A stretch of DNA of 64,000 nucleotides from Streptomyces sp. WMMC500 (GTDB lineage: Bacteria > Actinomycetota > Actinomycetes > Streptomycetales > Streptomycetaceae), in assembly GCF_027497195.1 (NCBI RefSeq), contig NZ_CP114905.1:1550001-1614000 (forward strand). Direction: 5' to 3'. Both the position numbers and the translations under genes were made by a program. The notes beneath the pieces are model-generated. The model had not been told where the DNA came from and searched no databases. It saw only the letters and a program-made list of their open reading frames with translations. Of the stretch, positions 12,206 to 48,229 are shown in pieces (position 1 is the first letter of the stretch; each line of letters opens with the position of its first letter).

Positions 12206-13225
12206 TCAGGCCAGCGCCGGGATGACGTGCGTGCCGTACGCGTCGATGGTGGACTCCTTCGCGTCGTGCATCGCGTAGATCGCGAACTGGTGCACGCCCA
12301 GCTCCCGCAGCCGGCCGAGCTTCTCCAGGTGCGCCTCGACCGGGCCCAGGATGCAGAAGCGGTCCACGATGTCGTCCGGTACGAAGTCCGTGGACGGGTT
12401 CCCGGCGCGGCCGTGGTGGGAGTAGTCGTAGCCCTGGCGCTGCTTGACGTAGGCGGTCAGCGCCTCGGGGACGACGTCGGAGTGCTCGCCGTAGCGGGCG
12501 ACGAGGTCGGCGACGTGGTTGCCGACCATGCCGCCGAACCAGCGGCACTGCTCGCGCGCGTGCGTCAGCGCCTCGGGGGTGCCGTCCGTGACGTACGCGG
12601 GGGCGGCGACGCAGATCGTCAGGTCGTCCGGGTCGCGGCCGGCCTGGGCGGCGGCGGTGCGTACCGCCTTGACCATGAACTCCGTGAGGTACACGTCGGA
12701 CAGTTGCAGGATGAAGCCGTCCGCGGCCTGCCCGGCGAGCGCCAGCGCCTTCGGCCCGTACGCGGCCATCCACACCGGCAGCCGGCCGTTCTCGACCCAC
12801 GGCAGCGTCAGCGTCGTGCCGGAGTCGCGGTCGACGACGGCCTCGCGGCCCTCGGCGAGGTCGCGGATGACGCGGATGGCGTCGCCGAGGCGGGCCAGGG
12901 TGTTCGGCGGGCGGCCCGCGACGCGCATGGCGGAGTCGCCGCGGCCGATGCCGCAGACGGTGCGGTTGCCGTACATCTCGTTGAGGGTGGCGAAGGCGGA
13001 GGCGGTGACCTCCCAGGCGCGGGTGCCGGGGTTGGTGACCATGGGGCCGACGGTGAGCCGCTCGGTGTGCTCCAGGATGCGGCTGTAGATGACGTACGGC
13101 TCCTGCCACAGAACGGTGGAGTCGAACGTCCAGCCGTAGCGGAAGCCGTTGCGCTCGGCGCGGCGCATCAGGCCCACGACGGCGGATGCGGGCGGGTCGG
13201 TCTGCAGCACGAGTCCGAAATCCAC
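12206..13225 (-). CDS. LLM-class F420-dependent oxidoreductase (TIGR03842-like)
   Basis: A 339-aa luciferase-like TIM-barrel protein beginning VDFGLVLQTDPPAS. Typical segments are MVTNPGTRAWEVTASAFATL, VCGIGRGDSAMR and LPVWMAAYGPKALALAGQ, plus a C-terminal FAIYAMHDAKE. Members of this subfamily sit next to dihydropyrimidinase and NCS1 permease genes in other actinomycetes, as I recall. It probably reduces or oxidises a pyrimidine-pathway intermediate with F420 or FMN. The GTG start at 13225 has AAAGGGGG before it; there is no nearby ATG. A longer open frame upstream is only antisense/shadow sequence of the hydantoinase gene. Confidence 0.88.
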   Translation of the reverse strand: MDFGLVLQTDPPASAVVGLMRRAERNGFRYGWTFDSTVLWQEPYVIYSRILEHTERLTVGPMVTNPGTRAWEVTASAFATLNEMYGNRTVCGIGRGDSAMRVAGRPPNTLARLGDAIRVIRDLAEGREAVVDRDSGTTLTLPWVENGRLPVWMAAYGPKALALAGQAADGFILQLSDVYLTEFMVKAVRTAAAQAGRDPDDLTICVAAPAYVTDGTPEALTHAREQCRWFGGMVGNHVADLVARYGEHSDVVPEALTAYVKQRQGYDYSHHGRAGNPSTDFVPDDIVDRFCILGPVEAHLEKLGRLRELGVHQFAIYAMHDAKESTIDAYGTHVIPALA

Positions 13226-13275: not shown

Positions 13276-14676
13276 CTAGAGGAACTGGCAGGTGCCGCGC
13301 GGGATGTACTGGCCGTGTCCCGCGTGGCCGGTGAACTCGCGCCCGTCGAGGACGGTCTCGCCGCGGGAGAGCACGGTCTCGACGCGGCCGGTGATCTCCT
13401 TGCCCTCGTACGCCGAGTAGTCGACGTTCATGTGGTGCGTGGCGGCGGAGAGCGTCTGGCGGGCCCCGGGGTCGTAGATGACGATGTCGGCGTCGGAGCC
13501 GGGGGCGATGGTGCCCTTGCGGGGGTAGAGGCCGAACATCCGCGCGGGGGCGGCGCAGGCGATGTCGATCCAGCGGCGGCGGGTCAGGTGCCCGTCGAGC
13601 ACGGCCTGGTGGAGGAGGTCCATGCGGTTCTCCACGCCCGGCAGCCCGTTGGGGATCTTGGAGAAGTCGCCGCGGCCCAGCTCCTTCTGGTCCGTGAAGC
13701 AGAACGGGCAGTGGTCGGTGGAGACGACCTGGAGGTCGTCGGTGCGCAGCCCGCGCCAGAGGGCGGCCTGGTGCTCGCGGGGGCGCAGCGGGGTGGAGCA
13801 GACGTACTTGGCGCCCTCGAAGTCCGGTTCCGCGAGGTTGTCGGTGGACAGGAACAGGTACTGCGGGCAGGTCTCGCCGAAGACGGGCAGGCCGGCGTCG
13901 CGGGCCTGCGCCAGCTCGGCGACGGCCTCCTCGGCGGAGACGTGCACGACGTACAGCGGGCTGCCGGCGACCCGGGCGAGCTGGATGGCGCGGTGCGTGG
14001 CCTCGGCCTCCAGCAGGACCCTGCGCACCTCGCCGTGGTGGCGCGGGTCGGTCCTGCCCGCCTTGAGGGCCTGTTCGACGAGGACGTCGATGGCGATGCC
14101 GTTCTCCGCGTGCATCATGATCAGCCCGCCGTTGCCGGCGGCGCGCTGCATGGCGCGGAGGATCTGGCCGTCGTCGCTGTAGAAGACGCCGGGGTAGGCC
14201 ATGAACAGCTTGAAGGAGGTCACGCCCTCCTCGACCAGCCCGTCCATCTCCTTGAGCGTGTGCTCGTTGACGTCGGAGAGGATCATGTGGAAGGCGTAGT
14301 CGATGCTGCACTGGGCGTCGGCCTTGGCGTGCCAGGCGTCCAGGCCCTCGCGCAGCGCGCTGCCCTGCTTCTGGACGGCGAAGTCGACGATGGTCGTCGT
14401 GCCGCCCCAGGCGGCGGCGCGGGTGCCCGTCTCGAACGTGTCGGAGGCGAACGTACCGCCGAAGGGCAGCTCCATGTGGGTGTGCGCGTCGACCCCGCCC
14501 GGGATGACGTACTTGCCGGTGGCGTCGAGCGTGGCGGCCCCGGCGCGCCAGCCGGCGGCGGCGTCGCTGCCGTGCGCTGCCAGGGCGGTGACGCGGCCGT
14601 GCTCGACGAGCACGTCGGCGTGGATCTCGTCGGCGGCGGTGATGACCAGCCCGCCGGTGATGACTGTACGGCTCAC
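13276..14676 (-). CDS. hydA: Dihydropyrimidinase / D-hydantoinase
   Basis: A 466-aa amidohydrolase that opens the ring of dihydrouracil or hydantoins. It shows the metal motif VDAHTHMELPFGG (about residue 60), the bridging carbamylated lysine in TSFKLFMAYPG, VHVSAEEAV, and STDHCPFCF near residue 315. The typical dihydropyrimidinase length and C-terminal RKGTIAPGSDADIVIYDP are present. The GTG start at 14676 follows GGAAGGGAG. Dihydropyrimidinase and hydantoinase cannot be separated by reading alone. It is first gene of an operon with the F420 oxidoreductase (50-base gap) and NCS1 permease. Two palindromes lie within 55 bases upstream. Confidence 0.93.
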   Translation of the reverse strand: MSRTVITGGLVITAADEIHADVLVEHGRVTALAAHGSDAAAGWRAGAATLDATGKYVIPGGVDAHTHMELPFGGTFASDTFETGTRAAAWGGTTTIVDFAVQKQGSALREGLDAWHAKADAQCSIDYAFHMILSDVNEHTLKEMDGLVEEGVTSFKLFMAYPGVFYSDDGQILRAMQRAAGNGGLIMMHAENGIAIDVLVEQALKAGRTDPRHHGEVRRVLLEAEATHRAIQLARVAGSPLYVVHVSAEEAVAELAQARDAGLPVFGETCPQYLFLSTDNLAEPDFEGAKYVCSTPLRPREHQAALWRGLRTDDLQVVSTDHCPFCFTDQKELGRGDFSKIPNGLPGVENRMDLLHQAVLDGHLTRRRWIDIACAAPARMFGLYPRKGTIAPGSDADIVIYDPGARQTLSAATHHMNVDYSAYEGKEITGRVETVLSRGETVLDGREFTGHAGHGQYIPRGTCQFL

Positions 14677-14693
14677 GGCCTCTGCTCCCTTCC

Positions 14694-14710
14694 GGTGACG
14701 CGACGTCACC
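14694..14710. promoter_or_regulatory. Perfect palindrome upstream of dihydropyrimidinase
   Basis: GGTGACG-CGA-CGTCACC, 17 bases, 18 bases before the GTG start of the dihydropyrimidinase gene and inside its likely untranslated leader or promoter. It is a plausible regulator site. It is not repeated before the nitrilase operon, unlike the neighbouring TCTAC/GTAGA dyad. Confidence 0.45.
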
Positions 14711-14715
14711 AGGGG

Positions 14716-14729
14716 TCTACACCCGTAGA
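14716..14729. promoter_or_regulatory. Operator TCTAC-N4-GTAGA before hydantoinase operon
   Basis: TCTACACCCGTAGA begins 40 bases upstream of the dihydropyrimidinase start. The same dyad, TCTACGCACGTAGA, begins 30 bases upstream of the beta-ureidopropionase-like gene at 25351-25364. Matching sequence, spacing and position before two operons of one pathway make this a good candidate for a shared regulator site. Confidence 0.65.
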
Positions 14730-14955
14730 GTCGAGCTGCGTGCGAAGACCGTAGAAGCATGGCACCGCGCTCGGCAATACCGCGGCAGCCACCCTTCGGG
14801 GCAGCGTGGCGGGGGGCCGTACGCGCCGATCGTGCGCGCCGCACGCCGTACCCGTGCGTACTGCACACCCTGTTCATGACAGCGGTGACTACTGCCGGCG
14901 CCCGTCCGGCTGCCATCCTTCCTGAGCGCAGTCAAAGTGACGGCCTTGGGGGGAA

Positions 14956-17679
14956 ATGGACAAGCGATACGAGGCGTTCTGCCTGGCCGACGAGTATTTC
15001 TACGAAACTCCGGACCGACTGACAGACGCCGCCGACGCGGCGGCCGGGCACTTTCCCGTCGCCCGCCGCGAGACCCCCGAGGGGTGGATCGACGCGTGGT
15101 CCGGCGACTGGCGCCAGTTGCAGCCGCTGGAGGATCGTGACTGGCCGGAGCAGGGCTGGAAGATCCACGTCTCGGCCCGCCTCGACAACGCCGACCGGGT
15201 CGGCACGCATATCTGGGATTACTGCGTGCCGCGCGGCATTCCCTTCAAGTTCGTACCGGGAAAACAACTCCTCTATCTCCGCAACTCGAAATACGCCAGC
15301 CGCACGATCAGCGGAAAGTTCGCCACGATCTACCCCGGCGACGACGACATGCTGCACGCCGTGTTGCGGGAACTCGGCGGGCAACTCGCCGATGAGGAGG
15401 GCCCGTACATCCTCACCGATCTGCGCTGGCGGAACGGGCCGCTGCACGTGCGCTACGGCGGCTTCGCGCCGCGCTACTGCGTCGGCGCCGACGGGGCGCT
15501 GGTGCCGGCCGTCGAGGGACCGGACGGCACGCTGATCCCCGACCGCAAGGACCCGGCGTTCAGCGTGCCCGACTGGGTGGAGCTGCCCGGATTCCTCGCG
15601 CCGGAACTGGCCGCGCGCAACGCCACGACGACCACCGGCCTGCCGTACCGCATCGAGCGTGCCCTGCACTTCTCCAACGGCGGCGGCGTCTACGCGGGCA
15701 CCGACCTGCGCGACGGCGCGCAGGTCGTGCTCAAGGAGGCCCGGCCGCACGCCGGGCTCGCCGCCGACGGCGCCGACGCGGTGGCCCGGCTGGAGCGGGA
15801 GAAGTCCGCGCTGGAGCGGCTGACCGGGCTGGGCGTCGCGCCGGGCGTCCGCGACTGGTTCGAGCTGGGCGGGCACCGCTTCCTGGTCATGGACTTCCTG
15901 CCCGGGCGGACCCTCAACTCCTTCTTCGCCGAGCGGCACCCGCTGCTGGCCGCCCGGCCGGACCCGGCCGAGGTGGCGTCGTACACCCGCTGGGCGGTGC
16001 GGGTGCACGGGGCGGTGGAGCGGGCCGTCGCCGCGGTGCACGGGCGGGGGCTGGTCTTCAACGACCTGCACATGTTCAACATCATGGTCGCGCCCGACGA
16101 GGACGACCCCTCGGTGGCGCTGGTCGACTTCGAGGCGGCGGCGCCGGTGGCGGCCGGGCCGCGGCAGATCGTGGCGCATCCCGGGTACGTCGCGCCGGCC
16201 GACCGCGAGGGCTTCGCGATCGACCGCTACGCGCTGGCCTGCCTGCGGATCGCGCTGTTCCTGCCGATGACGACGCTGCTGGCCGTCGACCGGCGCAAGG
16301 CGGCGCACCTGGCCGGGATCGCGGCGGAGCAGTTCCCGGAGCTGCCGGAGGAGTTCCTGCGGGAGGCGGTCGAGGAGATCGCCGGCGGACCGGCCGCGGT
16401 CACAGCCGCCGCCGGGGCGTCCCGGGCCGCCACGACGGCGGCGAGATCCGGCGCGAGGGCCGCCGAGCCGCTGTTGCCGGCCGAGCCCCACGACTGGCCG
16501 CGCAGCCGCGCGGCCATGGCCCGGGCGCTGGCCACCTCCGCGACCCCCGGGCGCGACGACCGCGTCTTCCCCGGCGACGTCGCCCAGTTCAACGACGGCG
16601 GCGGCCTCGGGCTGTCCTTCGGCGCCGCGGGCGTGCTGTACGCACTGGCCGAGGCCGGCGCGCCACGCAGCCAGGCCGGGGAGGAGTGGCTGCTGAAGCA
16701 GACCGCGGCACCGCCGCGCGGCACGCCGTTCGGGCTGTACGACGGGCTGCTCGGCGTGGCGTACGTCCTGGAGCGGCTCGGGCACGGCAAGCGGGCCCTC
16801 GACCTCACCGCGCAGGTGCTCGCCGAGAACTGGCACAGCCTTGCCTCGCACCTGCACGGCGGGCTCGCCGGCGCCGGGCTGGTGCTCGACCACCTCGCGA
16901 CCGCCTGCGGCGAGCCGTCCCTGCACGACCACGCCCTGCGCGCCGCGACGCTGCTGACCGAGCGGCTCGCCGCGGCGGACGCCCGGCCGTCCGAGGGCTC
17001 GGCCGGTCCGCAGCCGGGCCGGGGCGGCGAGCGCGCCGGTCTGCTGCACGGCTGGACCGGCCCGGCGCTGTTCTTCCTCCGGCTCCATGAGCGCACCGGC
17101 GACCCCGCCCTGCTGGACGCCGCCGCCCGCGCGCTCCGCCGCGACCTCGACCGCTGCCGGGTCGACCGCACCGGCGGCCTCGTCGTCGACGAGGGCCACC
17201 GCACCATGCCGTACCTCGGCGACGGCAGCGCGGGCATCGCGACCGTGCTCGACGACTACCTCGCGCACCGCGACGACCCGGACCTCGCCGAGGCGCGCAC
17301 CGCGGTGCTGCCCGCCGTCCGCATGCGCTACTACGCCCAACCCGGCCTGTTCCAGGGGCGGGCCGGGATGCTGCTGCACCTCGCCCGCACCGCGACCCCC
17401 GGCGTACGCCCCGGGGATCTCGCCGCCCAGGCCGCCGCGCTCTCCTGGTACGCCCTGCCGTACGGCAACGGGCTCGCCTTCCCCGGCGACCAGATGATGC
17501 GGCTGTCCATGGACCTGGCCACCGGAACCGCCGGCTGCCTGCTCGCGCTCGCCGCGGCGCAGCCCGGGAGCGGCGCCGGCCTGCCCTTCCTGTCGCCCGC
17601 GCACCGGCGCGGACGCCAGGCGGACCGGCCCCGTGACGGGGCCGGAGCATGTGCACCATCCGGCAAGTCCCAGCAGTAA
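14956..17679 (+). CDS. ramC: Class III lanthipeptide synthetase LanKC (RamC/AmfT-like)
   Basis: A 907-aa three-domain enzyme that phosphorylates Ser/Thr in the precursor, eliminates phosphate, and forms (methyl)lanthionine or labionin rings. The N-terminal lyase region is about residues 1-210. The kinase domain is about 225-480, with VVLKEARPHAG (ATP lysine), RGLVFNDLHMFNIMV (catalytic loop) and ALVDFEAA (metal-binding DFE). The cyclase-like domain is about 530-890, with LYDGLLGVAYVLERLG, HLHGGLAGAGLVLDHL, LLHGWTGPALFFLRLHE and ATGTAGCLLALA. Zinc-ligand cysteines are absent, as in class III. The ATG at 14956 follows GGGGGGA. It precedes the precursor gene by 22 bases. Similarity to RamC of the SapB pathway is clear; the product is presumably a surface-active morphogen. 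Confidence 0.95.
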   Translation: MDKRYEAFCLADEYFYETPDRLTDAADAAAGHFPVARRETPEGWIDAWSGDWRQLQPLEDRDWPEQGWKIHVSARLDNADRVGTHIWDYCVPRGIPFKFVPGKQLLYLRNSKYASRTISGKFATIYPGDDDMLHAVLRELGGQLADEEGPYILTDLRWRNGPLHVRYGGFAPRYCVGADGALVPAVEGPDGTLIPDRKDPAFSVPDWVELPGFLAPELAARNATTTTGLPYRIERALHFSNGGGVYAGTDLRDGAQVVLKEARPHAGLAADGADAVARLEREKSALERLTGLGVAPGVRDWFELGGHRFLVMDFLPGRTLNSFFAERHPLLAARPDPAEVASYTRWAVRVHGAVERAVAAVHGRGLVFNDLHMFNIMVAPDEDDPSVALVDFEAAAPVAAGPRQIVAHPGYVAPADREGFAIDRYALACLRIALFLPMTTLLAVDRRKAAHLAGIAAEQFPELPEEFLREAVEEIAGGPAAVTAAAGASRAATTAARSGARAAEPLLPAEPHDWPRSRAAMARALATSATPGRDDRVFPGDVAQFNDGGGLGLSFGAAGVLYALAEAGAPRSQAGEEWLLKQTAAPPRGTPFGLYDGLLGVAYVLERLGHGKRALDLTAQVLAENWHSLASHLHGGLAGAGLVLDHLATACGEPSLHDHALRAATLLTERLAAADARPSEGSAGPQPGRGGERAGLLHGWTGPALFFLRLHERTGDPALLDAAARALRRDLDRCRVDRTGGLVVDEGHRTMPYLGDGSAGIATVLDDYLAHRDDPDLAEARTAVLPAVRMRYYAQPGLFQGRAGMLLHLARTATPGVRPGDLAAQAAALSWYALPYGNGLAFPGDQMMRLSMDLATGTAGCLLALAAAQPGSGAGLPFLSPAHRRGRQADRPRDGAGACAPSGKSQQ

Positions 17680-17701
17680 CCGAGCCAACCAAGGAGACAT
17701 C

Positions 17702-17818
17702 ATGGCGCTTCTCGACCTGCAGGCCCTCGAGGCAGCCGAGCAGACCGGCGGCGGCGACAGCAGCCTGAGCCTGCTGTGCGGCAAGCACAGCTCCCACAGC
17801 GTGCTGCTCTGCCTCTGA
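17702..17818 (+). CDS. ramS: SapB-like class III lanthipeptide precursor (RamS/AmfS-like)
   Basis: A 38-aa precursor behind a strong AAGGAGA ribosome binding site. The leader has MALLDLQALEAAEQ, the LLDLQ recognition motif for class III synthetases and nearly the start of AmfS as I recall it. After a GGG linker come two ring blocks: SSLSLLC, then SSHSVLLC at the C-terminus. The second fits the S-x2-S-x3-C pattern of SapB-type rings; the first is one residue shorter (S-x2-S-x2-C). RamS of S. coelicolor has 42 aa, so this precursor is short. It lies between the synthetase gene and the ABC transporter genes. The leader-removal site and final ring type cannot be read here. Confidence 0.93.
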   Translation: MALLDLQALEAAEQTGGGDSSLSLLCGKHSSHSVLLCL

Positions 17819-17835
17819 CCCTCCCGCACCGAAGA

Positions 17836-17867
17836 GGCCCCGGGCGCACACGACGGCGCCCGGGGCC
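17836..17867 (+). terminator. Hairpin after lanthipeptide precursor gene
   Basis: GGCCCCGGGCGC - 8-base loop - GCGCCCGGGGCC, a perfect 12-pair stem 18 bases after the precursor stop. It probably acts as a partial terminator, allowing more precursor than transporter mRNA. The rest of the 332-base gap up to the ABC gene shows no gene. Confidence 0.8.
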
Positions 17868-18150
17868 GCGGTCCCCTCGCCGGGTGGCGACGGCCGGCAC
17901 CGGGGCGTAAGGGACGGACGGGCGACGGCACGGCACTGCGCGGGGAGGCCAGTCGGACGGAGGCGGTGGGAGGGGCGGGGCGCGGGGCGGTCGTACGGAC
18001 GACGGGACTTCGCGCCGAGCCCGGGCGGACGGCGGCAGCCGAACGCGGGCCGGCACGTACGCGACACGGGGCGGCAGACCCGGGACCGGGACCCCGCACA
18101 CGGCGGACGGCGGCCGGGTGGCCGGTGACGGCGGGGAGGAGGCGAAGCGC

Positions 18151-20007
18151 GTGGACGGCGAACCGGAGGGTTCCGCGGGCGGGACGCGGCGGCTGTTCGT
18201 ACGGGCCGGGCGGCACAGCGGCGCGTACGCCGCCGCACTCTGCCTGGTCACCACCGCCGCCGCGGGCGCGGCGCTGGCCCTGCCCGCGATGCTCGGCGTC
18301 GCCCTGGACCGGGTGCTCACCGACTCGCCCGACGCCCCCCGCGCACTCGCCCTGTGCGCCGCACTGACCGCGGCGGTCATCCTGCTGGACGCCGCCGAGA
18401 CCGTGCTCAACGGCGTCACCACCGCCCGCACCACCGCCTGGCTGCGCCGCCGTCTGCTGGGCGCCGCACTCGCCACCGAGCCGCGGCACGCCGCCGGGCT
18501 GGACACCGGCGACCTCGTCACCCGCGCCACCGGGAACGCCGCCCACGCCGGCGCCGCCCCCACCGCCGCCGCCTCCGCGCTCGGCGCGCTCCTCACCCCG
18601 GTCGGCGCGCTCGTCGCGCTGGCCGTCATCGATCCCTGGCTCGCCGTCGTCCTCGGCGTCGGCACGCCCGTACTCGTGCTCCTGCTGCGCGCGTTCGTCC
18701 GCAGCGCGGGCGACTGCGTGACCCGCTACCAGGAGGCGCAGGCCGCCATCGCCGCACGGCTGGCCGAGGCGCTGGCCGGCGCGCGGACGATCGCCGCCGC
18801 GGGCACCGTCGGCCGCGAGCGGAGCCGCGCGCTGGGCCCGTTGCCGGAGCTGAGCCGGCACGGCCACCGGATGTGGCACGTGCAGGGCCGCGCCACCGCG
18901 CAGGCGGCCGTCGTCGTGCCGCTGCTGCAACTCGCCGTCGTCGCCGTGGCCGGGCTGCGGCTGGGGGCGGGCCGGCTGAGCGTGGGCGAGTTGCTGGCGG
19001 CGGGCCGGTACGCGATGCTCGCCGGCGGCATCGGCGTCCTCGTGGGCCACGTCAACACCCTCGTACGCAGCCGGGCGGCGGCGCGCCGGCTGACCCCGGT
19101 GCTGCGGCTGCCCCCGATCCCGTACGGGCCGGACACCGCCCCGGCGCCGGCCGCCGGCGGCCGGCTGGAGCTGCGCGGGGTCACGGTGCGGCGCGGCGGG
19201 CGGACCGTGCTGCGCGGGCTGGACCTGACGGTGCCCGCGGGCGCGACGGTCGCGGTGGTGGGGCGCTCGGGTGCCGGCAAGTCGCTGCTCGCCGCGGTGG
19301 CGGGGCGGCTCACCGACCCGGACGGGGGCGACGTCCGCCTCGACGGCGTGCCGCTGGCCGGCCTGGCGCGCACGGAGCTGCGGGCGGCGGTGGCGTACGC
19401 GTTCGCGCGCCCGGCGCTGCTCGGCGGCACGGTCGCCGAGGCCCTCGCGTACGCCGACGCCCGCACCCCGATCGCGGCCGACCGCGCGGTCGCGGCGGCG
19501 CGGGCCGCCGACGCGGACGCGTTCGTACGCGCCCTGCCCGCCGGCTACGCCACCCCCGCCGCGGACGTGCCGCTGTCCGGGGGCGAGCTGCAACGCCTGG
19601 GCCTGGCCCGCGCCTTCGCCCGCGACGCGCGGCTGCTGATCATGGATGACGCGCTCTCCGGCCTCGACACCGCCACCGAACTCCGCATCGAGCGGGCGCT
19701 GCTGGCGCCCGGCGGCGCGCCGGGGTCCGGGAGCGGTGCGGACGGCCGCCCGCGCTTCGGCGGTGGAGGTGGCGGCGGTGGCGGTACGGACAGTGGTGCC
19801 GAGGGGGGTGACGCCGCTCTCCGTACCCGCGTCCGCGCTGCGCGCGGGAGCCGGCTGGTCGTGGCGCACCGGGCGGCCACGGCGGCGCGCGCCGACCTCG
19901 TTGCGTGGCTGGACGGCGGCCGGGTCCGCGCTCTGCGTCCACACACGGAGCTGTGCGCCGACCCCGCGTACCGCGCCCTGTGGGACGAGGAGCCGCCCGG
20001 TGCGTGA
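18151..20007 (+). CDS. ramA: ABC transporter, membrane + ATPase fusion (RamA-like)
   Basis: A 618-aa half-transporter for export of the lanthipeptide. A six-helix membrane domain (about residues 25-320) is followed by an ATPase with Walker A VGRSGAGKS, signature LSGGELQRLGLARA, Walker B LLIMDDALSGLD and H-loop VVAHRAA. The residue after the Walker B Asp is Asp instead of the catalytic Glu, as in the degenerate half of heterodimeric exporters. Between D-loop and H-loop lies an unusual insertion of about 50 residues with a nine-glycine run. The GTG at 18151 is preferred because GGGGAGGAGG stands eight bases before it; GTG 18118 is also open. It presumably pairs with the product of the next gene. 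Confidence 0.9.
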   Translation: MDGEPEGSAGGTRRLFVRAGRHSGAYAAALCLVTTAAAGAALALPAMLGVALDRVLTDSPDAPRALALCAALTAAVILLDAAETVLNGVTTARTTAWLRRRLLGAALATEPRHAAGLDTGDLVTRATGNAAHAGAAPTAAASALGALLTPVGALVALAVIDPWLAVVLGVGTPVLVLLLRAFVRSAGDCVTRYQEAQAAIAARLAEALAGARTIAAAGTVGRERSRALGPLPELSRHGHRMWHVQGRATAQAAVVVPLLQLAVVAVAGLRLGAGRLSVGELLAAGRYAMLAGGIGVLVGHVNTLVRSRAAARRLTPVLRLPPIPYGPDTAPAPAAGGRLELRGVTVRRGGRTVLRGLDLTVPAGATVAVVGRSGAGKSLLAAVAGRLTDPDGGDVRLDGVPLAGLARTELRAAVAYAFARPALLGGTVAEALAYADARTPIAADRAVAAARAADADAFVRALPAGYATPAADVPLSGGELQRLGLARAFARDARLLIMDDALSGLDTATELRIERALLAPGGAPGSGSGADGRPRFGGGGGGGGGTDSGAEGGDAALRTRVRAARGSRLVVAHRAATAARADLVAWLDGGRVRALRPHTELCADPAYRALWDEEPPGA

Positions 20008-20159
20008 GCGCGACGCCGAGCGCCGCCCCGCCGGGCCGGGCCCGGCTCCGGCCACCTTCCCGGGCGCGGCCACCGGCGCCCCCGGCCCGGCGCCCGCACC
20101 CCGCGTCGCGGGTGCCCGTAGCCATGCGTACCGCGCCCGGCAGCACGAGGAGCCCACCG

Positions 20160-22265
20160 ATGCGTAAGCGCACCACCGACCGCCCTGCCACCGCCCCGGC
20201 CCCCGGCGCCGCCCCGGCCGCCGCCGCCGCACCCGCCGGTGCGGACCCCGCGCCCGGGCTGCGGGTGCTCGTGCCCGCCGGGCTGCGGTTCCTGCGCCGG
20301 CGGCGGCGGGCCGTCGCGGCGGTGGCCGGATGGTCCGCCGTCGAGGCGCTGCAGACCTTTCTGCTCGGGCACGCCCTCGCGCGGGCCGTCGACCGGGGGT
20401 TCCTGGCCGACCGCCCCGGGGTGGGCCTCGGCTGGCTCGCCGTCGCTGCGGTGGGCGTCGCGGTCGGCGCCTTCGGGACGCTCCGGGTGTACGGGGCGGT
20501 GGCCCGGCTCACCGAGGACCTGCGGGACACCCTCGTCAGGCGGGTCGTCACGGGGTCGCTGGAGCGCGCGGCGGCCCGGGGGCGGGCCGAGGGGCCGGCG
20601 GCGGTGTCGCGGCTGACACACCAGGTGGAGATCGCCCGCGACGGCTTCGCGGGTCTGGTGATGGTGACCCGGTCCTTCGTCGTCACGGCCGCCGCCGCGC
20701 TGCTGGGGCTGCTGACCCTGGCGCCGCCGCTGCTGCTCGTGGTGCTGCCGCCGCTGGCGGCGGGGCTGGCGGTCTTCGGCTTCTCGCTGCGGCCGCTCTC
20801 GCGCTGCCAGCGGGACTTCCTCGCCGCCGACGAGGCGCTGGCCGCCGAGCTGGGCGCGGTGGTGGACGGGCTGCGCGACGTCGTCGCCTGCGGCGGCGAG
20901 CGGCGTGCGGGCGCCGCCGTACGGGCCAGGGTCGACGCCGAGTTGCGCGCCTCGACGGCGCTCGCGCGGTGGGGCACGGCGCGGGATGTCGCCGTGGGCG
21001 TCGGCGGCCGGCTGCCGGTGGTCGCGCTGCTGCTGGCCGCGCCGTGGCTGCTCTCGCGGGGGGTGACCGCGGGCGCGCTGGTGGGTGCGCTGGCGTATCT
21101 GACGCAGGCGCTGCTCCCGGCGCTGCAGTCGCTGGTCTTCGGCCTCGGCGGCACGGGCGCCCGGCTGACGGTGGTGGCGGGCAGGCTGTACGCCGCAGGC
21201 CCTCCGGGCGGGACGACCGGAGCCGCTGCGGCCGGCGGCGAGGCTGCGCACCCGCCGACAGACGGCGCGGCCGGGAGCCCGCTGGCGACGGGCAAGCAGT
21301 ACCGCGCGGGCCCTCCGCACGGCGCGGCCGAGACCGGCGCGCACCGCGGCGACGCCGAGCAGCCCGCGGCCGACGGCGCGGCCGGGAGCCCGCGGTCCCG
21401 GGGCGCCGCGGTGGCGCGGGCGGACCGCGCCCCGGCCCCCGGCGCCTCGCTCCCCGGCCCGCCCGCCGCCCCGGCCCTCGCCGGCCCCGCCGCGGGCGGC
21501 CCTCCGGCTCCCGGTCCCGGTGTCGTGCTCGAACTGCGGCGGGTGTCGTTCCGCTACGGGCCCCGCTCCGACGCCGTCATCCGCGGGCTCGATCTCGTCG
21601 TACGGGACGGGGAGCATCTGGCCGTCGTCGGGCCCAGCGGCATCGGGAAGTCGACGCTGGCGAGCCTGGCCGCCGGGCTCGTGGCGCCCGGGACGGGCGA
21701 GGTGCGCCGGGCCGGGCGGCCCCTGCTGCTGCCGCAGGAGGCGTACGTGTTCGGCGGCACCCTCCGCGACAACCTCGCCTATCTGTGCCCCTCCCCCGTC
21801 GGCGACGCGGAACTCCACCGCTCCGCGCACGCGGTCGGCGCGGAGCCGCTCGTGGCGCGGCTCGGCGGGCTGGACGCGCGGCTGCGGCCCGCGGAGCTGT
21901 CGGCCGGCGAGCGGCAGCTCCTCGCGCTCGCCCGCGCGCACGTCGCGCCGCCCCGGCTCGCGCTGCTCGACGAGGCGACGTGCCACCTCGACCCGGCCGC
22001 GGAGGCCCGGGCGGAGCGGGCGTTCGCGCGGCGGCCCGCCAGCACGCTGGTGGTCGTCGCGCACCGCGTCGCGTCGGCCGCGCGGGCGGACCGGGTGCTG
22101 GTGCTGGACGGCCGGTCCGCGCTGGCGGGCACGCACCGCGAACTGCTGGCGCGCTCGCCGTTCTACCGTGAGCTGACCGGTGCGGGCGCGGGTACGGGCG
22201 CGAGCACCGGCACCGGCGGCGCGACCGCCGGCCACCCGCCCGTCCCGGCGCACCCCGGGACCTGA
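20160..22265 (+). CDS. ramB: ABC transporter, membrane + ATPase fusion (RamB-like)
   Basis: A 701-aa half-transporter, partner of the upstream gene. The membrane domain spans about residues 35-330. A low-complexity Ala/Gly/Pro linker of roughly 110 residues leads to the ATPase: Walker A VGPSGIGKST, Q-loop LLPQEAYVFGGTLRDNLAY, signature LSAGERQLLALARA, Walker B LALLDEATCHLD with the catalytic Glu intact, and H-loop VVVAHRVAS. The ATG at 20160 has GAGGAG upstream; an ATG at 20124 is in frame too. The preceding 152-base gap after ramA has no separate gene. It converges with the RamR-like regulator, separated by a hairpin. Confidence 0.9.
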   Translation: MRKRTTDRPATAPAPGAAPAAAAAPAGADPAPGLRVLVPAGLRFLRRRRRAVAAVAGWSAVEALQTFLLGHALARAVDRGFLADRPGVGLGWLAVAAVGVAVGAFGTLRVYGAVARLTEDLRDTLVRRVVTGSLERAAARGRAEGPAAVSRLTHQVEIARDGFAGLVMVTRSFVVTAAAALLGLLTLAPPLLLVVLPPLAAGLAVFGFSLRPLSRCQRDFLAADEALAAELGAVVDGLRDVVACGGERRAGAAVRARVDAELRASTALARWGTARDVAVGVGGRLPVVALLLAAPWLLSRGVTAGALVGALAYLTQALLPALQSLVFGLGGTGARLTVVAGRLYAAGPPGGTTGAAAAGGEAAHPPTDGAAGSPLATGKQYRAGPPHGAAETGAHRGDAEQPAADGAAGSPRSRGAAVARADRAPAPGASLPGPPAAPALAGPAAGGPPAPGPGVVLELRRVSFRYGPRSDAVIRGLDLVVRDGEHLAVVGPSGIGKSTLASLAAGLVAPGTGEVRRAGRPLLLPQEAYVFGGTLRDNLAYLCPSPVGDAELHRSAHAVGAEPLVARLGGLDARLRPAELSAGERQLLALARAHVAPPRLALLDEATCHLDPAAEARAERAFARRPASTLVVVAHRVASAARADRVLVLDGRSALAGTHRELLARSPFYRELTGAGAGTGASTGTGGATAGHPPVPAHPGT

Positions 22266-22313
22266 CCCGGCCGCGCCCCACGGCCCCACGGGCCCGAGAC
22301 CCGGGTCCCCGGT

Positions 22314-22342
22314 CCCCGTCCGCCCGGCCCGGGCGGACGGGG
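22314..22342. terminator. Bidirectional terminator between ramB and ramR
   Basis: CCCCGTCCGCCC - 5-base loop - GGGCGGACGGGG, a perfect 12-pair stem between the convergent transporter and regulator genes, ending five bases from the regulator stop codon. Confidence 0.75.
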
Positions 22343-22347
22343 GCCCG

Positions 22348-22923
22348 TCAGAGCCAGCCCGCGCTGTCGGCGATGCGGATCGCGTCGACCCGGTTGCGCG
22401 CGCCCGTCTTGCGGATCACCGCGGCGAGGTAGTTGCGCACCGTGCCGCCGGCCAGATGCAGGGCGGCCGCGATCTCGGCGACCGGAGCCCCCTCCGCCGC
22501 GGCGGCCAGCACGGCCAGCTCCCTGCTGGTCAGCGGCATGTCCGCGGCCCGCAGGAAGTCGCAGGCCAGCGCTTCGTCGATGTACCGGTCGCCCGTCGCG
22601 ACCCGCCGGATGGCGGCGATCAGCCTCTCCGGGGCCGAGTCCTTGCTGACGAGGCCCCGCACGTCCGCCTGCGAGGCACGCCGCAGCAGCCCCGGCCGCC
22701 CCGCCTCGGTGAGGATCACCATCCTTTCCGCGGCGGTGCCCGGAAGCCCGGACCACTCGCCGTCGCCGTCCACCACGCACACCTGCGCCTGCCAGTCGGC
22801 CGCCGGTCCGCGCGAGTGGTGCCACGCCGTCGTGAGTACGTCGAGATCCTGTTCTCCTCCCAGCAGTGCGGCCAGCGCGGATCTGATGAGCATCGTGTCG
22901 TGTATCAGAAGCACGCGGATCAC
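22348..22923 (-). CDS. ramR: LuxR-family response regulator, RamR-like
   Basis: A 191-aa regulator with a receiver-like domain (VIRVLLIHDTMLIRSALAAL, then QVCVVDGDGEW with a possible phospho-Asp, and GLVSKDSAP with the conserved Lys). Its NarL/LuxR helix-turn-helix is LTSRELAVLAAAAEG to GGTVRNYLAAVIRKTGARNR. One acidic-pocket residue at the N-terminus is His (IHD), a deviation from canonical receivers. Position next to the ram genes and orientation match ramR, the activator of ramCSAB in S. coelicolor. There is no cognate kinase beside it. The GTG at 22923 follows a G-rich tract; a GTG at 22941 is the longer option. Confidence 0.85.
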   Translation of the reverse strand: MIRVLLIHDTMLIRSALAALLGGEQDLDVLTTAWHHSRGPAADWQAQVCVVDGDGEWSGLPGTAAERMVILTEAGRPGLLRRASQADVRGLVSKDSAPERLIAAIRRVATGDRYIDEALACDFLRAADMPLTSRELAVLAAAAEGAPVAEIAAALHLAGGTVRNYLAAVIRKTGARNRVDAIRIADSAGWL

Positions 22924-23119
22924 GGAGCCCCCCCACGTCACCCGGAAACGAGGCCGACGGGGTCACGGTCGGTCCGCTTATGAATACACGGAGACACCGC
23001 CGGTTTGCGCGCGTAGTTCCGGACATCGTGGTGCGAGCAGGGCGCACAACCCGGCGGAAGAGCCGACCGCGCGCCCCCCTCTGGTCCCTTGACACCTCGT
23101 CGGCCCCGTGAGCGACAAA

Positions 23120-23148
23120 GGGCCGGCCGCGCGGTGCGCGGCCGGCCC
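23120..23148 (-). terminator. Terminator after aminotransferase gene
   Basis: GGGCCGGCCGCGC - GGT - GCGCGGCCGGCCC, a perfect 13-pair stem 21 bases past the aminotransferase stop. It is followed on the minus strand by CTTTG. It closes the nitrilase-aminotransferase operon. The rest of 22924-23168 shows no gene and should hold the regulator's promoter. Confidence 0.8.
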
Positions 23149-23168
23149 CTGCGTGGTCGGTGCTCCCG

Positions 23169-24482
23169 TCAGCCGCCGTCCGTTCCGGCGTCGGCGGCGT
23201 GCAGGGCCCGTTCGAGGACCGCCGCCCCCTCCTCCGCTTCCGCGACGGTCAGGGACAGGGGCGGCGCGATGCGCAGCGTCTCGCCGAACTTGCCGCGGCC
23301 GACGAGCAGTCCGCCGGCGCGGGCGTGCTCCAGCACCGCCGCGGCGTGCCCCGGGGTCGCCAGCTCGATGCCGATCATCAGGCCCCGGCCGCGTACCTCG
23401 CGGACCGAGGCAAGGCCCGCCGTGGCGGCCCGCAGCCGCTCGATGAGCAGCCCGCCGACGCGGCGGGCGTTGCCCTGGAGGTCGTGCTCCAGGACGTAGC
23501 CGAGGTTGGCCAGGCCCGCGGCCATGGTGACCGGGCTGCCGCCGAACGTGGACAGGGAGTTGGCGTCCAGGCAGTTCATGATCTCGGCGCGGGCTACGAC
23601 GCCGCCGATGGAGGCGCCGTTGCCGATTCCCTTGGCGAAGGTGAGCATGTCCGGCGGGCCGTTGCCCGCGTGCGCCTGCCAGCCCCAGAAGTGGTCGCCG
23701 GTACGGCCCCAGCCGGACTGCACCTCGTCGGTGATCCACAGGATGCCCTCCTCGGCGAGCACCTCGCGGAAGGCGGCGTACAGGCCGTCTGGCGGGGACG
23801 TGAAGCCGCCGACGCCCTGGACGGGCTCGGCGATGAGGGCGGCGACGCCGCGGGTCTGGGACAGCATGTCGCGCAGGTCGGCGACGCAGGCGTCGATGAA
23901 CGCGGCGTCGTCGAGGTGCGCGAAGGGGCCGCTGCCGCGGATGCCGCCGTGGACGTAGAGGGTCTGCAGCGGGGAGAGGCTGGTGGGCGACCAGGCGCGG
24001 TTGCCGGTGATGCCGACCGCGGTGAAGGAGCGGCCGTGGTAGCTGTTGCGCATGGCCAGCACCTGGTTCGAGCCGCGGTACGTGCTCGCCAGCAGCAGCG
24101 CGGTGTCGTTGGCCTCGGTGCCGGAGGAGGTGAAGAACACCCGCGCGTCGGGGATGCCGGACACCTGCGCGATGCGCTCGGCCAGCTCCACCATGGGGCG
24201 GTTGAGGTAGAGGGTGGAGGTGTGCAGGATGCGGCCGGCCTGCTCGGCGACCGCCTTGGTGACCTCCGGGAGGGCGTGGGCGGTCATGGTGGTGAGGATG
24301 CCGCCGAAGAAGTCGAGGTAGCGGTTGCCCTCGGCGTCCCAGACGTGCCGGCCCTCGCCGTGGGTGATCTCGATGGGCTCGGCGTAGTAGAGCGCCATCC
24401 AGTCGGGCAGGACGGCCCGGTGCCGGGCGAGCAGGCCGCGGTGGACGCCGCCGCCCCCGCCCGCGTTGCTCCCGGCGCTCAC
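23169..24482 (-). CDS. Class III aminotransferase (beta-alanine/aspartate family)
   Basis: A 437-aa PLP enzyme. It has VWDAEGNRYLDFFGGI, FFTSSGTEANDTALLLA (phosphate cup), YHGRSF, ITDEVQSGWGRTG and the Schiff-base lysine in MLTFAKGIGNG. It resembles AGXT2-like omega-aminotransferases. In the reductive pyrimidine pathway it would deaminate beta-alanine or beta-aminoisobutyrate released by the amidase encoded just upstream. The GTG start at 24482 overlaps that gene's stop by four bases (GTGA), so the two are coupled. The N-terminus contains a short glycine run. The exact amino donor cannot be read from the sequence. Confidence 0.92.
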   Translation of the reverse strand: MSAGSNAGGGGGVHRGLLARHRAVLPDWMALYYAEPIEITHGEGRHVWDAEGNRYLDFFGGILTTMTAHALPEVTKAVAEQAGRILHTSTLYLNRPMVELAERIAQVSGIPDARVFFTSSGTEANDTALLLASTYRGSNQVLAMRNSYHGRSFTAVGITGNRAWSPTSLSPLQTLYVHGGIRGSGPFAHLDDAAFIDACVADLRDMLSQTRGVAALIAEPVQGVGGFTSPPDGLYAAFREVLAEEGILWITDEVQSGWGRTGDHFWGWQAHAGNGPPDMLTFAKGIGNGASIGGVVARAEIMNCLDANSLSTFGGSPVTMAAGLANLGYVLEHDLQGNARRVGGLLIERLRAATAGLASVREVRGRGLMIGIELATPGHAAAVLEHARAGGLLVGRGKFGETLRIAPPLSLTVAEAEEGAAVLERALHAADAGTDGG

Positions 24483-25321
24483 GGCTTCACCAGGTCCTCG
24501 TACGCGTCCGGGCGGCGGTCCCGGTAGAACGCCCACTGCTGCCGGACCTCCTCGATCATGCCGAAGTCGAGGTCGCGCACCACCAGTTCCTCCTCCTTGT
24601 CGCTCGCGACGTCGCCGACGAACTGGCCGCGCGGGTCGACGAAGTAGCTCGTGCCGTAGAAGTCGTTGTCGCCGTACTCCTCGACGCCGACGCGGTTGAT
24701 GGCGGCGATGAAGTACTCGTTGGCGACGGCCGCGGCGGGCTGCTCCAGTTGCCACAGGTACGCCGACAGGCCGCGAGAGGTGGCCGACGGGTTGTAGACG
24801 AGCTGCGCGCCGCCGAGGCCGAGGGCGCGCCAGCCCTCGGGGAAGTGCCGGTCGTAGCAGATGTAGACGCCGACCCTGCCGACGGCGGTGTCGAAGACCG
24901 GCCAGCCGAGGTTGCCCGGCTTGAAGTAGTACTTCTCCCAGAAGCCCTTGACCTGCGGGATGTGGTGCTTGCGGTACTTGCCGAGCACCGTCCCGTCCGG
25001 GTCGATGACGACCGCGGTGTTGTAGTAGAAGCCCGACTGCTCGACCTCGAAGACGGGGACGACGACGACCATCCCGGTCTCGCGGGCGAGGGCCTGCATC
25101 CGCACGACGGTGGGCCCGTCCGGCACGGGCTCGGCCCAGCGGTAGTGCTCGGGCTCCTGCACCTGGCAGAAGTAGGGGGCGTTGAAGACCTCCTGGAAGC
25201 CGATGATCGCCGCGCCCTGGGCGGCGGCGGCTCTCGCGTGCTCCTCGTGCTTCGCGATCATCGACTCGGTGTCGCCGGTCCACGTCGCCTGGACGAGTGC
25301 GGCGCGTACAACGTTGGCCAT
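24479..25321 (-). CDS. Nitrilase-superfamily amidohydrolase, beta-ureidopropionase-like
   Basis: A 280-aa carbon-nitrogen hydrolase with the catalytic triad visible: Glu in GFQEVFNAPYF, Lys in YRKHHIPQVKGFWEKYYF and Cys in VYICYDRHFPEGWRALGL. The sequence around the Lys is that of N-carbamoyl-beta-alanine amidohydrolases. It would cleave N-carbamoyl-beta-alanine into beta-alanine, CO2 and ammonia, following the dihydropyrimidinase encoded 10 kb away. It is first in a coupled pair with the aminotransferase. The start is ATG at 25321; a TCTAC-N4-GTAGA dyad is 30 bases upstream. Confidence 0.92.
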   Translation of the reverse strand: MANVVRAALVQATWTGDTESMIAKHEEHARAAAAQGAAIIGFQEVFNAPYFCQVQEPEHYRWAEPVPDGPTVVRMQALARETGMVVVVPVFEVEQSGFYYNTAVVIDPDGTVLGKYRKHHIPQVKGFWEKYYFKPGNLGWPVFDTAVGRVGVYICYDRHFPEGWRALGLGGAQLVYNPSATSRGLSAYLWQLEQPAAAVANEYFIAAINRVGVEEYGDNDFYGTSYFVDPRGQFVGDVASDKEEELVVRDLDFGMIEEVRQQWAFYRDRRPDAYEDLVKP

Positions 25322-25350
25322 GGCTGCTCCTCGGACGGGACGCCGGAGGC

Positions 25351-25364
25351 TCTACGCACGTAGA
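25351..25364. promoter_or_regulatory. Operator TCTAC-N4-GTAGA before amidase-aminotransferase operon
   Basis: TCTACGCACGTAGA is the second copy of the dyad seen at 14716-14729 before the dihydropyrimidinase operon. It is flanked by GC on the left and AGC on the right, which extends the symmetry slightly. The location immediately upstream of the first gene favours repression or activation by one common regulator. Confidence 0.65.
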
Positions 25365-25451
25365 AGCCGGGGCGGATCTCTGAACGTAAGTCGCCGCGGG
25401 AGCGCTGGCAAGAGCGGCGCACCGAACGGCGGCGGGCCGGGACGGCGGGGG

Positions 25452-26972
25452 TCAGGCGGAGTCGGGCGCGCCGGGCAGGCCGGCGGAGCGCAGCGCGTGG
25501 GCGAGCCGGCGGTGCCGCTGGGCGGGCCCGCGGCGGGCGGCGCGCAGCAACTGCGGCACGAGCCGGCCGGGGTCGGCGCCGGCCAGTTCGACGGCCTCGT
25601 CGCTGCCGCGGGTGGCGGCGAAGGCGTCGAGCAGTTCCTCCGACTCCCGGTCGCGGCCGGCGCGGTGGAGGGCGGAGAGGATCGCGGCGAGTTCGGGTAC
25701 GGGCCGGGCGGCGGCGTGCCGGACGAGCTGGAGCGCCTCGCGCGTACGGCCGGCGGCGGCGAACGCGTCCGCGGCTCCGGTCAGCCGCTCGGGGGGCAGC
25801 GCGGCGGCCTCCCACAGGAGGGTCGCCACCTCGGCGGTTCCGACGGTGCGCTCCAGTTCGGCGACGAGGTCGGGCAGCGCCTCGGGCGGGCCCGCCGCGG
25901 CGGTGCTCAGCCGGGCGTACGCCTCACCGGTACGGCCCGCGTCACGCAGGGCGGCCACGGTGGCGGCGGTCTCGCCGGCGAGCCGTCGCCCGGCGGCTCG
26001 CCGGGCGGCCGCACGGTCGGCTTCCGCCGCGTCCTTTCGCCGCCGCCCGCCGCCCCCGCGCCCGCCCCCGGCCCCGGCCCCGGCGAACCGGGCGCCACGG
26101 GGCGGCGGTACGGAAGGCACGGGGGTGGCACCGCCGGCGGACTCGGGGATACCGGCCGCGGGCGGGGCACCCGCCCCCGCGGCATCGGAGCCCGGGAAGC
26201 GGGCGCCGCGGGGCGGGGGCGGCACCGCCTCGCCGGCTTCGGCCCCGGACCGCCCGGCGCCGCCGGAGCCCGGCGCAGGACCGGCACCGGCCGCACCCGC
26301 GGCACGCTCCGCACCGCTCCCGGCGGCGCCCGGCGGCACGCCCTCGTACGCACCGCCCACTGCGGGCAGCACCGGCGGCGGCGCCGGCGCGGCTCCCGCG
26401 AACCGGGCGCCCCGGAGTGCCGCCGGGGGCGGTGCTGCGGGCTCCCGTCCCGCCGCCTGCCGGTCCAGCGCCTCGATCCGGCCGCGCAGCTCCGCGCAGC
26501 GGGCGGACGCGCGGGTGGCGTCGTCGCGCACCCAGGCGAGTTCGTCCTCCAGTTGCTGCGCCGTCCAGGGGTCCGGCTCCACCGCCAGGCGGGCGCGCAG
26601 CCGCTCGGCGCCGTCCTCCGCCGCGCGGTGCTCCGTGAGCCGGGCGCGGAGCACCGCGGTCAGGGCGGCGCGGTCGGGGCGGCGGGCGTCGTAGGCGGCG
26701 ACGGCCGCGCGGTGCAGGTCGCGGGCGCGCGGCAGCGCCGCGCCCGCCGCCCGCCGGTCGCCGTGCTCGGCCAGGTCGTGCAGCAGTGATCCGACGACGT
26801 CCCACGGGGGCAGCACGGAGCCGTCCAGACAGGCGCGCAGCCCGTCCGGATCGCCGCGGCGAAAGACTCCGTACCAGCCGGTCTCTTCGTCCAGCCATCC
26901 CGTGATCTGCCGTAAGAATCGTGCCAGTTCCGCCATTTCCGGCGGCAGTGCTTGTTCCGCCACGGCGGGCAT
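25452..26972 (-). CDS. Large hypothetical protein with Ala/Gly/Pro linker and helical ends
   Basis: A 506-aa product with no enzymatic motif I recognise. The N-terminal helical part includes LARFLRQITGWLDEETGWYG and ends near residue 110. A stretch of heptad-like helix follows (AEDGAERLRARLAVEPD to CAELRGRIEAL). A low-complexity linker (about 180-330) contains the element RGARF three times. The C-terminal 170 residues are repeated Ala/Leu-rich helices reminiscent of TPR/PPR arrays (e.g. DAFAAAGRTREALQLVRHAA). Similar actinobacterial proteins are often given misleading viral tegument names. The ATG at 26972 is chosen; 26936 is possible, and the frame stays open to 27077. It diverges from the TM protein gene. 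Confidence 0.75.
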   Translation of the reverse strand: MPAVAEQALPPEMAELARFLRQITGWLDEETGWYGVFRRGDPDGLRACLDGSVLPPWDVVGSLLHDLAEHGDRRAAGAALPRARDLHRAAVAAYDARRPDRAALTAVLRARLTEHRAAEDGAERLRARLAVEPDPWTAQQLEDELAWVRDDATRASARCAELRGRIEALDRQAAGREPAAPPPAALRGARFAGAAPAPPPVLPAVGGAYEGVPPGAAGSGAERAAGAAGAGPAPGSGGAGRSGAEAGEAVPPPPRGARFPGSDAAGAGAPPAAGIPESAGGATPVPSVPPPRGARFAGAGAGGGRGGGGRRRKDAAEADRAAARRAAGRRLAGETAATVAALRDAGRTGEAYARLSTAAAGPPEALPDLVAELERTVGTAEVATLLWEAAALPPERLTGAADAFAAAGRTREALQLVRHAAARPVPELAAILSALHRAGRDRESEELLDAFAATRGSDEAVELAGADPGRLVPQLLRAARRGPAQRHRRLAHALRSAGLPGAPDSA

Positions 26973-48054: not shown

Positions 48055-48082
48055 CCGGTCTCCTCTCGGCGGCTCCATACTT

Positions 48083-48099
48083 CAACGTTCTGTTGAAAT
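48083..48099. promoter_or_regulatory. Operator TTCAAC-N5-GTTGAA before allantoinase
   Basis: A perfect 6+5+6 dyad 29 bases before the allantoinase start, in the region divergent with the IclR-type gene. On the minus strand it reads TTCAACAGAACGTTGAA. Copies occur before malate synthase (49818-49834) and the OHCU decarboxylase/uricase operon (55790-55806), all matching TCAACAGNNNGTTGAA. Confidence 0.75.
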
Positions 48100-48229
48100 G
48101 CACTGTCGCCGGGGGTGCCCGCCCCCGTCAAGGGGCAGGCCCGCGGGCGGTTTGGCGGATTCCACATGCTGAAAGCCGGATTCCGGGCCGTTAAGCTGCG
48201 CTCACACCCGTACGGAAGGGACCCCGAAC

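Follow-up and report, generated by a model that had tools for sequence, protein, structure and literature searches.

This analysis concerns a short palindrome that stands before both halves of a divided pyrimidine catabolism gene set in Streptomyces sp. WMMC500. The window, i.e., the whole stretch of DNA that was analysed, spans 64 kb (positions 1550001-1614000) of a genome of one contig and 8,614,341 bases (G000; handles beginning with G denote genomes and those beginning with L denote loci). One half of the set is headed by hydA, which encodes a dihydropyrimidinase, the other by bup, which encodes an amidase, and a lanthipeptide cluster of the ram/SapB kind lies between them. Each half is preceded by the dyad TCTAC-N4-GTAGA. 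Comparison of orthologous promoters makes it likely that the two dyads are one operator for one binding protein, probably a TetR-type repressor, placed just downstream of both predicted transcription starts.

The divided gene set and its two dyads

The genes of the two halves and the putative operators are as follows:

10627-12195, minus strand: NCS1 nucleobase permease (PF02133; TIGR00800, 437.7 bits, cut-off 353.1)
12206-13216, minus strand, start approximate: LLM-class F420-dependent oxidoreductase of the TIGR03842 family (560.4 bits, cut-off 295.45)
13276-14676, minus strand: hydA, dihydropyrimidinase (TIGR02033, 554.5 bits, cut-off 393.25)
14716-14729, minus strand: putative operator dyad O2 before hydA, TCTACACCCGTAGA (minus-strand reading TCTACGGGTGTAGA)
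23169-24488, minus strand, start approximate: class III-type aminotransferase (AT), beta-alanine transaminase-like by context
24479-25321, minus strand: bup, carbon-nitrogen hydrolase, beta-ureidopropionase-like (PF00795; below all NCBIfam cut-offs, name from context)
25351-25364, minus strand: putative operator dyad O1 before bup, TCTACGCACGTAGA (minus-strand reading TCTACGTGCGTAGA)

The dyads lie 39 bases from the hydA start codon (14676) and 29 bases from that of bup (25321), at the coordinates given by the first-pass annotation, which had put the distances at 40 and 30. Its impression that the window holds no other exact copy is borne out by a scan. When up to two mismatches are allowed, three further matches appear, and since the resulting total of five equals the chance expectation (mean 4.98), it is the exactness and the placement of the dyads that are informative. 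Across the whole genome the bare pattern TCTACN4GTAGA occurs in five places, against two for the reversed control, and is merely mildly rare. Among these, TCTACCCGGGTAGA occurs in L001, where it lies downstream of a selD-like gene and precedes a small open reading frame (ORF), as well as before a purQ-like gene in L005, and TCTACAGATGTAGA is found between genes for a solute-binding protein and a sugar-acid dehydratase-like protein (L004; all names from translations). The two copies of TCTACCCGGGTAGA possibly belong to another palindromic regulon. A refined motif derived from the orthologous promoters, TCTACGKGYGTAGA (minus-strand reading), is confined to O1 and O2 in the window's genome, with no match to its reversed control, and allowing one mismatch adds no site while the control then gives two.

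Regarding the genes themselves, hydA and the permease gene score above the curated cut-offs for a dihydropyrimidinase and a nucleobase permease, as expected of a reductive pyrimidine operon, and bup and AT match the expected superfamilies with scores under the curated cut-offs shown (for AT, those of its best 25 curated families). The reductive route is the most likely pathway of the gene set. The earlier description of a single reductive pathway with its importer stands for the dihydropyrimidinase and the permease but is incomplete at two points: dihydropyrimidine dehydrogenase, the first enzyme, was not recognized in either operon (the rest of the genome was not searched for it), and an NCS1 gene follows hydA within 2.5 kb in 30/60 genomes carrying hydA (divergent permeases and contig ends being counted as misses). 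In 54 of these 60 genomes hydA is followed by the LLM gene, and the TIGR03842 oxidoreductase could catalyze a redox step of the pyrimidine pathway.

Conservation of the dyad and its place in the promoter

The genus sample comprised 61 genomes, in 60 of which hydA was found and its region fetched; a dyad was assigned to bup when it lay within 160 bases of the start codon and to hydA when it lay within 200. The refined motif is present in 53/61 genomes at 62 sites, whereas its reversed control matches two genomes. Forty-nine of the sites stand before bup, in as many genomes (48 within 160 bases, and G044 at 170 bases), and seven before hydA, the window's genome being included in both counts, i.e., 56 sites at these two genes together and six elsewhere. 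In a second sample, consisting of the 80 best loci kept from a bup-protein search and drawn mostly from Streptomyces, the exact dyad precedes bup in 62. In an order-wide sample the motif is found in 156/197 genomes, spread over two of six genera, with no control match; the dyad is also carried by two loci from Streptacidiphilus, L094 and L098. The genus and order-wide samples give the conserved form of the site as TCTACG-N2-CGTAGA. The dyad is thus retained at orthologous promoters rather than scattered at random, and this conservation identifies it as a real, predicted operator. It provides a genus-wide and nearly noise-free predicted operator for pyrimidine breakdown in Streptomyces, one that could be used as bait for the discovery of the regulator.

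The promoter elements assigned to the two halves, together with a further palindrome in the hydA leader, are the following:

14694-14710, minus strand: perfect 17-base second palindrome between O2 and the hydA start, GGTGACGTCGCGTCACC (GGTGACGCGACGTCACC), a hairpin or a second operator
14748-14753, minus strand: hydA -10 box TACGGT, assigned from conservation
14772-14777, minus strand: hydA -35 box TTGCCG (spacer 18)
25383-25388, minus strand: bup -10 box TACGTT, likewise assigned; its layout matches most dyad-bearing bup promoters
25406-25411, minus strand: bup -35 box TTGCCA (spacer 17)

With the boxes assigned in this way, the distance from the -10 box to the start of the dyad is 18 bases in both promoters; a sigma-70 consensus scan of 14600-15000 detected no promoter. 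Among dyad-bearing bup promoters, in a set that counts some species twice, the -35/-10 spacer is 17 bases in 92/112, and the dyad begins 16-20 bases from the -10 box in 99 of the 103 in which a -10 box was recognized. The first transcribed stretch is a usual location of a repressor site, and both window dyads are positioned just past the transcription start, predicted to lie about 11 bases before each of them, as would be expected of one. The second palindrome has counterparts of the form TGACG-N3-CGTCA before hydA in L070, L083, G036 and G048. Many bup genes have a similar stretch, TGACGTC-CGTC, in front of them.

Gene order and the origin of the hydA promoter

The interval between AT and hydA in the window is occupied by genes of the lanthipeptide cluster:

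14956-22941: ram/SapB-like lanthipeptide cluster between the halves
14956-17679, plus strand: ramC (RamC_N, PF25816)
17633-17818, plus strand: ramS (PF19402)
18118-20007, plus strand: ABC transporter (PF00005, PF00664)
to about 22171, plus strand: second transporter ORF (no Pfam match in the submitted frame)
22348-22941, minus strand: LuxR-type regulator, ramR-like (PF00196)

All the components that mark a SapB-like cluster (ramC, ramS, an ABC transporter and a LuxR-type ramR) are therefore found between the halves, as the first-pass annotation had it. When AT and hydA are called joined at a gap of 400 bases or less, they are joined in 33/61 genomes, and in 18 more what separates them is a co-directional pucR gene and a second amidase gene (bup2); another gap is seen in six, and four were left unscored: G037 lacks hydA, neither bup nor AT turned up in G043, G050 meets a contig end, and the two halves of G053 were retrieved separately. 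The suggestion that species lacking the ram cluster at this place might have the operons side by side is thus upheld. In other genera, bup, AT and hydA stand together in L098, L100, L104, L106, L109 and G220, bup and hydA stand together with no AT detected between them in L092, L107, L110, L112 and L115, and L094 has bup and hydA together with a partial hydA repeat. Since these loci keep bup and hydA together, the genes were most likely joined in the ancestor, and the pyrimidine gene set of the window is very probably a split operon that was once undivided.

The ram cluster sits at the AT/hydA junction in G000 and G047 and, by a contig end, in G050; the hydA operator is likewise present in G047 and G050. 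The cargo at this junction varies among lineages. It consists of phosphoesterase, LysR, TPP enzyme and ALDH-like genes in G183 and G108, of the phosphoesterase gene without the other three in G185 and G019, and of alcohol dehydrogenase and TerD-like genes in G036 and G048 (names from reading). Other genes occupy the junction in L048, L070 and L083. In G053 (L270, L271) AT and hydA are about 30 kb apart, the interval including genes that resemble those for ketosynthase and acyl carrier protein, and G057 has a 511-base spacer in which no gene was called. RamC relatives occur in 43/61 genomes and lie directly beside hydA in G000, G047 and G050; several RamC-like genes (G036, G048, G013, G014 and others) were called with one internal TGA or TAG stop. 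On a bup+hydA tree (FastTree, built from the 137 rows in which bup and hydA are both complete; midpoint root, many weak forks), the junction, scored as a three-state trait in which pucR+bup2 is one of the states and two short partial hydA repeats are counted, requires at least 12 changes.

These observations suggest the following course of events. The bup/AT/hydA set would originally have stood together behind one operator before bup, and in the lineage of the window the ram cluster would have come between AT and hydA. The detached hydA half would have its own promoter carrying the same operator, by which both halves would stay in one regulon, each presumably transcribed as a unit. The bound protein would act as a repressor, probably of the TetR family, and a pyrimidine or one of its breakdown products would be the inducer. 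The common regulator and the insertion into an ancestral single locus, both proposed by the first-pass annotation, are thus well supported by the orthologous promoters and by the joined gene order. The case is ordinary in kind and unusual in how cleanly it displays the break-up of an operon with retained control: it suggests that a biosynthetic cluster can break an operon while common control persists, and the varied cargo at one junction across lineages turns the co-regulation of split operons into a directly testable question. As to expression, PMC3897704 lists the Streptomyces coelicolor genes SCO6414 (possible hydrolase), SCO6415 (probable dihydropyrimidinase) and SCO6417 (membrane transporter) with similar values in one comparison (1.2/0.4, 1.1/0.3 and 1.5/0.3, respectively), which, if these are orthologs of the window genes, would be weak and indirect support for co-expression.

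The alternative that survives best, although we regard it as rather unlikely, is that two adjacent and separately promoted operons are ancestral in the genus, that the dyad-bearing hydA promoter is old and that the joined state reflects repeated promoter loss. Where they can be compared, hydA promoters from different clades are more alike than each is to the bup promoter of its own genome, most of them share the CTTCTACG form with GTAGACC after the dyad, and the hydA-side dyad requires a minimum of only five changes on the tree. Against this stand the loci of other genera, which have bup and hydA together with no operator at hydA, as well as the 130 dyad-less hydA upstream regions, none of which exceeds a score of 26 against the six bup promoters from the group closest to the hydA promoters, so that no trace of a lost promoter was seen in them. 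Additionally, promoter type and position appear interchangeable, the promoter type of hydA in the window being found before bup in L040, L043, L049, L087, G055 and L038.

This last point rests on a comparison of the 75-base stretch preceding O2 with 113 bup promoters, in which the best scores were those of L087 (56), L049 (50), L043 (46), L040 (45) and L038 (40), against a maximum of 36 in 100 shuffles run over all 113. Shuffles scoring as high as the observed value numbered 0/100 for G000, G057 and L070 and 1/100 for G036. Because these cross-species scores exceed their controls, the hydA promoter type of the window can be equated with the type found before bup in another Streptomyces group, and the comparison supports a common origin of the promoters (weakly in the case of G036). 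The window's hydA promoter is also related to the hydA promoters of other split lineages. Within genomes, bup and hydA promoters were compared with the dyads cut out and with 500 dinucleotide shuffles as the control, and seven of nine tested split genomes beat at least 497 of the 500 (L062, with 3/500 shuffles as high; G019, 1/500; G057, L050, G183, G185 and L070, 0/500), a similarity owed in part to the common -35 and -10 boxes; for G047, 157/500 shuffles scored as high (not significant). The window's hydA promoter may have been duplicated, transferred or retained as an old second promoter.

Several observations weigh against a single operator retained across a split operon. In the window's own genome, 231/500 shuffles equal the score of the bup and hydA promoters outside the dyads, which leaves local copying of one promoter from the other unsupported. 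Nine of the 61 genomes have bup without an exact dyad there (G008, G010, G018, G031, G035, G036, G048, G051 and G060): the bup promoters of G008, G010 and G018 have no dyad even at up to two mismatches, and G031, like L077, has a two-mismatch form, TCTACGCGTGTGGA, at the same promoter position as the exact dyad elsewhere. In G036, G048 and L070 the exact dyad is kept at hydA alone and a two-mismatch form stands at bup, which indicates that the two operators can diverge. In G045 a RamC relative (58% identity, G045:C19:115628-118210) is separated from hydA by about 9.5 kb, on the flank opposite to bup, and ram-like genes in this neighborhood are thus not confined to the split arrangement. Lastly, of five candidate regulator genes profiled (PucR, MarR, GntR, Xre and TetR), none tracks the dyad.

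Candidate regulators and sites outside the operon

Neither operon is adjoined by a PucR or TetR gene, as judged from the translations and from Pfam and as already stated in the first-pass annotation; apart from the LuxR-type gene of the cluster, the nearest regulator is a GntR gene at 27974-28720, about 2.6 kb from bup, a relative of which is present in L108, a locus without the dyad. The candidates that were profiled and rejected include the in-operon PucR, which is present in 18/61 genomes. In these genomes the pucR gene lies inside the gene set, and L092 and L107, both from other genera, have one following the set. At an E-value of 1e-60 no pucR ortholog is found in 35/53 dyad-bearing genomes, that of the window included. 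The MarR gene beside a GH25 lysozyme-like gene, profiled by scoring part of each genome's candidates, has no match in G220, which carries the dyad, and has one in the dyad-less G068, G080 and G082. A HutC-type GntR next to an adenosine deaminase-like gene occurs in 8/61 genomes, with the exact dyad at two of these eight loci and a two-mismatch form at one, and the dyad there seems to follow an adjoining MFS gene rather than GntR. An Xre-type small helix-turn-helix gene lies within 10 kb of bup in 24/80 loci and is present in 185/197 genomes; it has no match in the dyad-bearing G100, G104, G164, G189, G225 and G236, and most dyad-less genomes have one.

The remaining candidate is a TetR gene near to or divergent from an FAD monooxygenase-like gene, found in 57/197 genomes at an E-value of 1e-25 and not in G000, and rejected on these grounds as the regulator of the window. 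In 30/30 of its best-scoring loci (L354-L383), TCTAC-N4-GTAGA stands beside the TetR gene, as one site in five loci and as two, about 30-46 bases apart, in 25, where the TetR protein would presumably bind it. The inner base pair of these sites, mostly TCTACA-N2-TGTAGA, is largely A/T, whereas it is G/C at the window dyads. A TetR gene also adjoins the dyad in G220 (L269). Since near-identical operators stand beside a TetR gene in 30 loci, and the window dyads are short promoter palindromes resembling these sites of the same genus, we favor by analogy a repressor of the TetR family whose inducer would be a pyrimidine or one of its breakdown products, with about an even chance that the family is correctly named.

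Among the closest known parallels is E. coli RutR, a TetR-family protein that represses pyrimidine breakdown and whose operator is TTGACCA-N2-TGGTCAA. Like the dyad, this is a palindrome at genes for pyrimidine catabolism and a nucleobase transporter, but its best match near the dyads (starts at about 14650-14960 and 25321-25460) has six mismatches, the genes here are of the reductive type (dihydropyrimidinase, carbon-nitrogen hydrolase, AT, LLM and NCS1) rather than rutA-G, and no TetR gene adjoins them. The nitrogen regulon of GlnR may include pyrimidine breakdown, and its boxes are not known to resemble the dyad. A literature search, outside which most subscription papers fell, returned no regulator of pyrimidine breakdown in Streptomyces and no mention of the dyad.

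That two different regulators with similar sites serve one operon each is improbable. The TetR/FAD monooxygenase pair provides another TCTAC-N4-GTAGA system in the genus, one of the two operators alone is intact in some species, and the middle four bases differ in frequency, being mostly GGGC before bup (65 of 116 sites) and either GTGC (7 of 13) or GGGT (6 of 13) before hydA. Yet GTGC and GGGT occur at both positions (42 and 4 times, respectively, before bup), and joined species have a single dyad before the whole set. It is still less probable that the dyads are RNA hairpins acting in the leaders by attenuation or on RNA stability. They do lie within the predicted 5' leaders, and a UCUAC-GUGC-GUAGA stem-loop appears in the best fold predicted for the bup leader, but the best structure of the hydA leader does without it and the leader z-scores are only -1.12 and -0.95. 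Moreover, in G220 the palindrome has the opposite orientation (loop GCAC) and its first base coincides with the final base of the -10 box; it would therefore not be wholly transcribed, a placement more in keeping with a DNA operator than with an RNA element. The dyad is also reversed in L094 and L098, where the -10 box is uncertain. Chance coincidence, for which the five bare matches against two in the control might speak, is excluded by the comparison, i.e., by conservation at the same spot in 49/61 genomes over a near-zero background.

One operator with one binding protein, the preferred reading, may extend beyond the pyrimidine genes. Among the matches listed, and with gene names taken mostly from translations, the dyad between GH25 lysozyme and MarR genes is exact in G031, G045, G208 and G221 and has one mismatch in many genomes, sites stand at S8 protease (G011, G181) and MFS transporter genes (G030, G144), an exact dyad stands before the urease operon of G125 and G224 (L258, L260), and the dyad occurs at the TetR/FAD monooxygenase pair in G038, G221 and G095. 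A site precedes the GntR/adenosine deaminase pair of G034, and a one-mismatch dyad precedes a nucleoside-type ABC transporter in the close relatives G005 and G056. The urease sites hint at a wider nitrogen scavenging regulon. Two recurrent one-mismatch forms were set aside: TCTACGTGCGAAGA, which lies inside called reading frames in 5/5 genomes examined, and TCTACAGGTGTAGA, which lies beside the TetR/FAD pair in 4/5 examined.

A broader and tentative proposal is that TCTACG-N2-CGTAGA is the site through which an undescribed Streptomyces regulator controls a regulon for scavenging nucleobases and nitrogen, with the pyrimidine operon as its core and with urease, GH25 lysozyme, secreted S8 protease, MFS and, by a one-mismatch site, nucleoside ABC transporter genes as lineage-specific members. 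The AT/hydA junction would then be a recurrent landing site for foreign clusters (lanthipeptide, type II polyketide synthase-like, tellurium/alcohol dehydrogenase and phosphoesterase/LysR/ALDH), and a mobile promoter-operator unit would repeatedly keep the split half in the regulon.

Two further loci were noted. At 46693-49027 of the window, about 21 kb from bup, an allantoinase-like amidohydrolase gene lies alongside a divergent IclR-family regulator (AllR-like by context), forming a second nucleobase catabolism locus, one without the dyad. At the MarR loci (L176-L225), among the rows listed, the region upstream of the MarR gene is often occupied by a GH25 lysozyme-like gene in divergent orientation, together with the near-exact dyad GCTACGCACGTAGA; where a lon-like gene replaces the lysozyme gene beside MarR, the dyad is gone, and a second conserved element, CTGCGAAATACTGG, is present also without the lysozyme gene.

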